Shown one piece after another: positions 6,476 to 38,452 of a DNA stretch of 42,580 nt. Under the pieces are notes generated by a model. It was not told the DNA's origin, did no database searches, and worked only from the letters and a program-made list of their open reading frames with translations. Position 1 is the first letter of the stretch, and each line of letters opens with the position of its first letter. Both the position numbers and the translations under genes were made by a program. The stretch is from Polymorphobacter sp. (GTDB lineage Bacteria > Pseudomonadota > Alphaproteobacteria > Sphingomonadales > Sphingomonadaceae): positions 1 to 42,580 of the forward strand of contig NZ_JANYGL010000011.1 in the NCBI RefSeq assembly GCF_025362435.1. Direction: 5' to 3'.

Positions 6476-6500
6476 TGGGCCCCGTGCGGAGCACAATCTA

Positions 6501-34569: not shown

Positions 34570-36912
<2,343 letters not shown>

Positions 36913-36988
36913 AGTCTCAGTCTTTCATCAGCGCCCGGCCCATGCCGTGCGCGGCCTACAGCCGGCCCCGCGTCATTGCGGTCGCCGG

Positions 36989-37017
36989 AAAAAGAACAGG
37001 CTCCCGAAGGAGCCTGT
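36989..37017 (-). terminator. Intrinsic terminator after rpsO with UUCG loop
   Basis: Read leftward, ACAGGCTCC-TTCG-GGAGCCTGT forms a 9-bp stem (37009-37017 with 36996-37004) with a UUCG tetraloop, followed by TTCTTTTT. It sits 6 bp beyond the rpsO stop and before pnp, so pnp needs read-through or its own promoter. Confidence 0.85.
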
Positions 37018-37023
37018 CCCGAA

Positions 37024-37293
37024 TTACTTGCGAAGCCCGAGCTTGCCGATCAGGTCGGTATAGCGGGCGGTGTCGCGGCTCTTGAGATAATCGAGCAGCG
37101 AGCGACGGTTGTTGACCAACATCAGCAGGCCGCGGCGCGAATGGTTGTCCTTGCCGTGGGTCTTGAAATGCTCGGTCAGGTTGGCGATGCGCTCGGTCAG
37201 GATCGCGACCTGGACTTCGGGTGAACCGGTATCGCCCGTGGTGCGGGCATGCTCGGCGATGAGCGCAGTCTTGCGCTCGATTGTGATCGACAT
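37024..37293 (-). CDS. rpsO: 30S ribosomal protein S15
   Basis: An 89-residue primary 16S rRNA-binding protein of the small subunit. The S15 sequence is complete: [77 protein letters not shown] lies just before the ATG at 37293. It starts 12 bp after the end of the truB C-terminal frame. A possible S15 autoregulatory pseudoknot was not identified. Confidence 0.98.
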
Positions 37294-37305
37294 CGTGGGT
37301 CTCCT

Positions 37306-38221
37306 TCAGGTCAGGTTGAACCCGCGCACGACCCGTATCGCGATGGAGGAAACCTCCACCAGGGCGACCGGAACAAGCCCGTCGGTCGCCAGATACAGCC
37401 CGTGGGATGCGGGGTGCCCGGGGAGCGTCCGACCTTGTCGAAGGAGGGTTGCGTCTTCGGGCGTAACGGATAGAGCCGGGATGTCGTCCAGCCCCGCCGT
37501 CAGCGGCAGTATCGCCTGTTCATCGCCCGCCTGTAGCAAAACCGCCAATTTGTCCAGCGAAATCGCCGCGTCGGGTGAACGGCCCGGCGCGGGTGCGCCT
37601 GAGCGCCGCGACATGCCCGACCGTGCCGAGCGCCAGCGCGAGGTCGCGGGCGAGGCTGCGGACATAGGTGCCCTTCGAGCAGGTCACTTCGAAGTCGGCT
37701 TTTTCGGCGCGCGCCTCGATCAGGTCGAAGGCGTGGATCGTCAGGTGGCGCTCGGCGAGGACGACGACCTCCCCTGCCCGCGCCAGCTTGTAGGCGCGCT
37801 CGCCGTCGACCTTGAGCGCCGAATAGGCTGGGGGTGTCTGGACGATCGGTCCGCGGAAGGCCGGGAGTGCGGCGCGGATCGCAGCGTCGTCGGGACGTAT
37901 ATCCGAGGTCGCGACGACCTCGCCCTCGCGGTCGTCGGTCGCGGTCGCGGATCCCCATGCGACGGTGAAGGCATAGCCCTTGGTCGCGTCGAGCATCCGG
38001 CCGGCGAGCTTGGTCGCCTCCCCGAGCGCGATCGGCAGGACGCCGGTGGCGAGCGGGTCGAGCGTCCCGCCATGGCCGATCTTGACCTTGGGGTAGCCCG
38101 ACTGGCGGAGGATGCGCTTGACCGCCGCGACGCCCTGCGCCGAGCTCAACCCGAGCGGTTTGTCGACGACGATCCAGCCGTGAAGCGGCCCCGCCTCGCG
38201 GGGAGACGGAGCCGATTCCAG
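37306..38221 (-). pseudogene. truB: tRNA pseudouridine synthase B, apparent frameshift
   Basis: TruB makes pseudouridine 55 in the T-loop of tRNAs. From 38221 the frame encodes HGWIVVDKPLGLSS, catalytic Asp55 in GHGGTLDPLATG and CSKGTYVRSLARDLA, then after AALRRTRAGPF runs off-sequence and stops at 37520. The normal C-terminal domain (ISLDKLAVLLQAG ... LPLTAGLDDIPAL ... GLYLATDGLVPVALVEVS) continues in another frame to 37306. One extra base in the GGG run at 37573-37575 explains it; restored, the protein would be 304 residues, the usual length. Start: no ATG/GTG/TTG precedes the conserved N-terminus; CTG at 38221 abuts the DUF2171 stop with AGAGGA 7 nt upstream. A TTG at 38149 would remove the KP motif. 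Mutation or sequencing error both possible. Confidence 0.85.
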
Positions 38222-38234
38222 TTACTTGTCCTCT
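38219..38234 (-). promoter_or_regulatory. Ribosome-binding site and CTG start of truB
   Basis: AGAGGA (38234-38229) is followed by a 7-nt spacer, which includes the DUF2171 TAA, and then CTG at 38221-38219. It is the only codon in this frame between an upstream stop and the conserved HGWIVVDKP that could start translation at suitable distance. Confidence 0.55.
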
Positions 38235-38452
38235 TCGAACGTCACTGCGACATCGCCGTTCGCCGACAGGCGGACGTCGTTGCCCTCGACCTCGGCGACC
38301 AGGCCGCCCGAGATCCAGTGGTGATGCTGGTCGCCCGAATCGGTCTTGGTCAGCTTGATGCGGTGGCCGTCGACGTGGTCGACCGTCCCGACGTGGACGC
38401 CGTCGGCGCCGATGACGTTCATATGCTCAGCGATCTGCGAAAGGTCGGCCAT
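38222..38452 (-). CDS. DUF2171 family protein
   Basis: A 76-residue small soluble protein of the DUF2171 family, with a PRC-barrel-like pattern: MADLSQIAEHMNVIGADGVHVGTVDHVDGHRIKLTK, then HHHWISGGLVAEVEGNDVRLSANGDVAVTFEEDK. Function unknown. It ends directly before the truB CTG, with its Shine-Dalgarno inside its last codons, so the pair is coupled. The 89-residue gene lies just upstream on the same strand. Confidence 0.9.
   Translation of the reverse strand: MADLSQIAEHMNVIGADGVHVGTVDHVDGHRIKLTKTDSGDQHHHWISGGLVAEVEGNDVRLSANGDVAVTFEEDK

Follow-up and report, generated by a model that had tools for sequence, protein, structure and literature searches.

Two missing bases in the only truB gene of a Polymorphobacter draft genome and a probable rpsO-pnp control region in the truB 3′ end

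The only truB gene detected in this genome lacks two bases that are present in its closest relative. The break is found in no other locus compared, and the DNA that follows it is constrained at synonymous sites and contains a covarying hairpin. On balance, we read this as a recent, private lesion of the sole truB that leaves a truncated product and spares control of rpsO-pnp. The DNA behind the break suggests a broader feature, which we regard as reasonably likely: the final ~90 codons of truB would be dual-purpose in Sphingomonadales and some neighbouring orders, encoding the TruB C-terminus and serving as promoter and S15-responsive leader of rpsO-pnp, with nearly frozen synonymous sites; the 3′ half of the lesioned truB, which is no longer translated in frame, would thus have been kept. 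The window referred to below is the whole stretch of 42,580 nucleotides that was analysed.

The two truB reading frames and the break between them

The truB frame, on the minus strand, begins with the codon that follows the stop of a DUF2171 gene (38221) and runs to a TGA at 37520-37522. Its 5′ part (37574-38221, minus strand) encodes the TruB catalytic domain and stays in frame to ...RRTRAGPFT, as judged by profile matches (Pfam TruB_N, 3.2e-51; NCBIfam TIGR00431, 1.5e-62) and by 91% amino acid identity to TruB of the closest relative; GGTLDPLATG, the Asp-containing catalytic motif of TruB, is present. An out-of-frame tail of 17 codons and a premature TGA follow (37520-37573, minus strand), and the 17 residues after ...LRRTRAGPFT, RRGDFAGQIGGFATGGR, have no relation to TruB. 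The C-terminal region is found in a second frame (37306-37572, minus strand), which reads DAAISLDKLAVLLQ...VVRGFNLT to its own TGA and is 95% identical, in amino acids, to the relative's protein (its residues 218-305). The earlier note on this DNA had described both frames in the same way, with TruB homology lost after AALRRTRAGPF, a stop at 37520 and the C-terminal domain in a neighbouring frame down to 37306. It was also correct about the gene order truB-rpsO-pnp: rpsO (ribosomal protein S15; 37024-37293, minus strand) starts 12 bases past the truB stop, with its Shine-Dalgarno sequence AGGAG at 37301-37305 (minus strand), and is followed by pnp (polynucleotide phosphorylase; 34570-36912, minus strand; 97% amino acid identity to the relative).

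The DUF2171 gene (PF09939; 38222-38452, minus strand) is located directly upstream of truB in the same frame, and only its stop parts the two. At 38215-38230, no ATG, GTG or TTG start of truB was seen ahead of the essential HGWIVVDK motif. A CTG adjoins the DUF2171 stop (TAACTGG), GAGGA lies upstream of it, and a similar arrangement (TAGCTGG) exists in the closest relative; truB likely starts at this CTG or by coupled reinitiation.

The closest relative available (G005) belongs to the same genus, consists of 3 contigs and is rated 100% complete. Synteny with it extends across almost all of the window, at a DNA identity of about 79-94% by block (mostly 86-90%); two 26-base insertions relative to it were observed at window positions 6480 and 24629. 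Its syntenic truB is unbroken and has 305 codons. The sole difference in frame between the two genes is the absence of two bases at the 37572/37573 junction of the window (minus strand), which was located by DNA alignment and by a codon table of 89 sequences. On the plus strand, the window reads CGCGTC--GGGTGAAC and the closest relative CGCGTCGAGGGTGAAC, that is, a two-base deletion, and relatives have one extra codon at the break site, mostly CTC or CTG (89 sequences). The earlier note had placed the break correctly, as the plus-strand GGG at 37573-37575 flanks it, but had attributed it to one extra base in this run. We rejected such an insertion because two bases are missing in comparison with both the closest relative and other loci. 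Since loss of two bases and gain of one have the same effect on frame, the one-base inference was reasonable when made without relatives. The two lost bases lie outside any long homopolymer.

If translated as it stands, the gene would have the ribosome read 17 wrong residues after the break and then stop; the truncated product, of about 233 residues, probably has impaired function or none at all. The TruB_N match of the 5′ part extends to the end of the model, and that to TIGR00431 reaches model position 200 of 210. The match to Pfam TruB_C_2 already ends at position 30 of 66, with the rest of this domain out of frame. Compared with TruB tRNA pseudouridine-55 synthase (TIGR00431; PDB 1sgv, 1k8w), the N-terminal 216 codons align and the catalytic motif is present; in contrast, the C-terminal region, which should be continuous with the catalytic domain, is out of frame in the window. 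It is conceivable, but unlikely, that the truncated protein, with its catalytic domain, has retained tRNA binding and some of the tRNA chaperone role of TruB, so that the lesion is tolerated; this would be a sub-case of a real lesion and is not exclusive of the explanation that we prefer. The matches up to the end of TruB_N and to position 200 of 210 in TIGR00431 are consistent with such tolerance, as is the finding that catalytically dead TruB rescues E. coli fitness (PMC11301382). However, about half of TruB_C_2 and the entire C-terminal region are lost, and these C-terminal parts are kept in every relative searched.

Lesion or sequence error

A comparison with truB of relatives, along the lines of a check proposed in the earlier note, revealed a break private to the window: truB residues 190-240 are covered by a single uninterrupted frame in all 109 of the relatives' loci. 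Only one TruB match occurs in the genome (a draft, 97% complete), and the five further pseudouridine synthases are all of the PF00849 (RluA/RsuA) type. The gene was kept across the relatives searched, the exceptions being single cases or drafts that also lacked rpsO. Loss of truB within the genus was considered and rejected: three same-genus genomes had no truB match, and rpsO was absent from these drafts too, implying missing sequence rather than gene loss.

The earlier note had offered a lesion, programmed frameshifting and a sequencing error as explanations. The first and the last both stand, whereas programmed +1 (or -2) frameshifting that yields full-length TruB is very improbable. The second frame is indeed open to the natural stop, with its 95% amino acid identity to the relative, but this openness can be explained by the few changes (8/267 bases) under an independent constraint that is described below. 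Furthermore, no relative shares the break (109/109 loci unbroken), and inspection of the sequence at the shift site ACC-CGA-CGC revealed no evident slippery run, stop or conserved signal.

The alternative that carries most weight is an assembly or consensus error, in which the organism's truB is intact and two bases were lost in merging reads or strain variants; we give it somewhat less than an even chance. The window represents one complete contig from an assembly of 165 contigs, of which many measure 2-3 kb. This assembly is apparently a metagenome-assembled genome, and a draft of this kind makes an error plausible. The privacy of the break and the lack of decay in either half of truB also fit an error. 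To place the break in context, the window's genome was compared with that of the closest relative across roughly 230 kb of syntenic sequence, comprising 185 ORFs and 67,536 codons, and the truB break was the only clean internal frameshift. Other apparent frameshifts were mostly low-identity stretches upstream of starts, or ORFs in the wrong frame or strand; of the two strongest candidates, both rejected, L158 encodes an intact ferredoxin-like protein in a different frame, and no coding frame fitted L171. The absence of a second clean frameshift in 67,536 codons implies that the assembly is not generally indel-prone, and the break is not a long-homopolymer slip, both of which count against an error; nevertheless, one indel in about 230 kb (one event in 185 ORFs) could equally reflect a low rate of consensus errors or a rare lesion.

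Selection on the N-terminal part of truB was normal and purifying (dN/dS 0.15 relative to the closest relative). The window lineage has accumulated 7 nonsynonymous and 16 synonymous changes and that of the relative 18 and 22, respectively; these counts gave no sign in the N-terminal part of the relaxed selection that marks a pseudogene. Such a result is expected for either a recent lesion or an error, and the lack of excess amino acid change implies that the lesion, if real, is recent. E. coli survives deletion of truB but is less fit when competing (reviewed in PMC11301382, PMC12503941), and PMC11301382 cites Gutgsell 2000 for lowered competitive fitness upon truB loss. This cost and the retention of truB in relatives count against a real lesion. 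Considering these observations together, a recent lesion is slightly favoured over a sequence error, and we infer that the lesion is biological.

Constraint in the truB 3′ end and a candidate rpsO leader

After the break, only 8 of 267 bases differ from the closest relative and dS is 0.05, compared with 0.40 before it. The proportion of identical synonymous codons is about 75% ahead of codon ~219 (~210-230) and mostly 90-100% from there to the stop. This step, whose onset adjoins the lesion, was seen in independent close pairs from Sphingomonadales and neighbours; the low ratio was absent in more distant pairs, probably because their N-terminal part is saturated at biased codon usage. Individual codons showed the same tendency: Ile221 is encoded by ATT or ATA in 85 of 86 sequences, whereas ATC dominates elsewhere in truB, Lys225 is encoded by AAA in 62 of 68, and the GLDDIP codons are near-invariant in the truB alignment. 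As judged by these comparisons, the truB 3′ part carries nucleotide-level constraint on top of the protein code.

Because identity to the closest relative climbs from about 86% to 96% exactly at the lesion, we had suspected a recombination or contig-chimera junction there, which would explain both the drop in divergence and an indel at the join. The same step occurs at the same codon in many unrelated close pairs, pointing to constraint rather than to a private junction, and this possibility was rejected as largely refuted; we consider it hardly credible. The constraint also bears on the observation, made in the earlier note and borne out here, that both truB halves are otherwise intact. A second explanation is available for this, namely that the DNA after the break is constrained at synonymous sites in close relatives, apparently by rpsO control. 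Since synonymous sites in close Sphingomonadales pairs are nearly frozen, the intactness of the C-terminal half does little to distinguish a lesion from an error.

A covarying hairpin was detected inside the truB coding sequence (37464-37502, minus strand). Its core, CTGG-ACGACATC-CCGG, is located at -198 (198 nt upstream) from rpsO and is extended by a second helix. Over a set of 71 distinct sequences, 89.6% of the cells are paired and 55 cells were changed on both sides, compared with 15.7 in shuffles; the covariation score was 0.256, versus 0.144 when shuffled and no more than 0.112 with slid partners. Covariation is stronger evidence for the hairpin than fold energy, which alone is unremarkable (z -1.77). 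Just upstream of it, CTGGACA...GCTACA resembles the Caulobacter RpoD consensus TTGaCgS...GCtANAWC (quoted in PMC8144410). The putative -35-like hexamer, TGGACA, lies at 37551-37556 (minus strand), where the codons ATT-TCG-CTG-GAC-AAA are conserved and use synonyms that are rare elsewhere in truB; the putative -10-like hexamer, GCTACA (cf. GCTANAWC), at 37532-37537 (minus strand) is weakly conserved.

In a separate observation, truB of a second relative, from a one-contig genome of 86% completeness (G013, locus L086), is in two frames and is broken at about 1388-1405, just after LDDI and inside the conserved hairpin; this break is possibly a sequence error.

In the published description of the alphaproteobacterial S15 leader (Slinger et al. 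2014, PMC4137082), the H1 stem is highly conserved, covaries and carries an 8-nt loop, transcription starts just ahead of this stem, and the linkers that separate H1 from H2 can reach 400 nt. The leader was reported for more than 90% of species in five orders including Sphingomonadales, and S15 binding and autoregulation via the leader for R. radiobacter only. The window likewise has one conserved covarying stem-loop with an 8-nt loop upstream of rpsO, the arrangement expected of an S15 leader. It differs from the published description in the placement of the hairpin, at -198 and within the coding sequence of truB, and in a constraint that spans about 90 truB codons; the text of PMC4137082 does not mention truB. 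By likeness to this description, the hairpin is probably H1 of the S15 leader, and it is from this likeness that we infer the identity of the embedded element. RNAalifold over the whole stretch gave no clear H2 helix with the rpsO ribosome-binding site. No Rfam 15 family matched near the site (36800-38300) above chance level, and the S15 leader family may be absent from Rfam itself. A related arrangement is the element for rplS inside trmD in Caulobacter (PMC8144410), where a ribosomal protein gene is also controlled from the 3′ end of an upstream tRNA-modification gene. However, different genes are involved, and that element is a short translational hairpin demonstrated experimentally, not a promoter plus leader.

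Given the synonymous-site constraint and the covarying hairpin, the DNA after the break would also act as promoter and 5′ leader of rpsO-pnp. As these control elements are intact in the window, expression of S15 and PNPase from rpsO-pnp should be spared by the lesion.

Implications of the overlap

The lesion by itself is commonplace, as it concerns one interrupted gene in a draft genome, and the overlap is the more interesting part. An intact second half past a frameshift is usually read as recoding or sequencing error; here, that half is constrained beyond its protein. The overlap would extend the published S15 leader into the upstream coding region, and it predicts that synonymous recoding of the truB 3′ end in these bacteria would disturb expression of S15 and PNPase.
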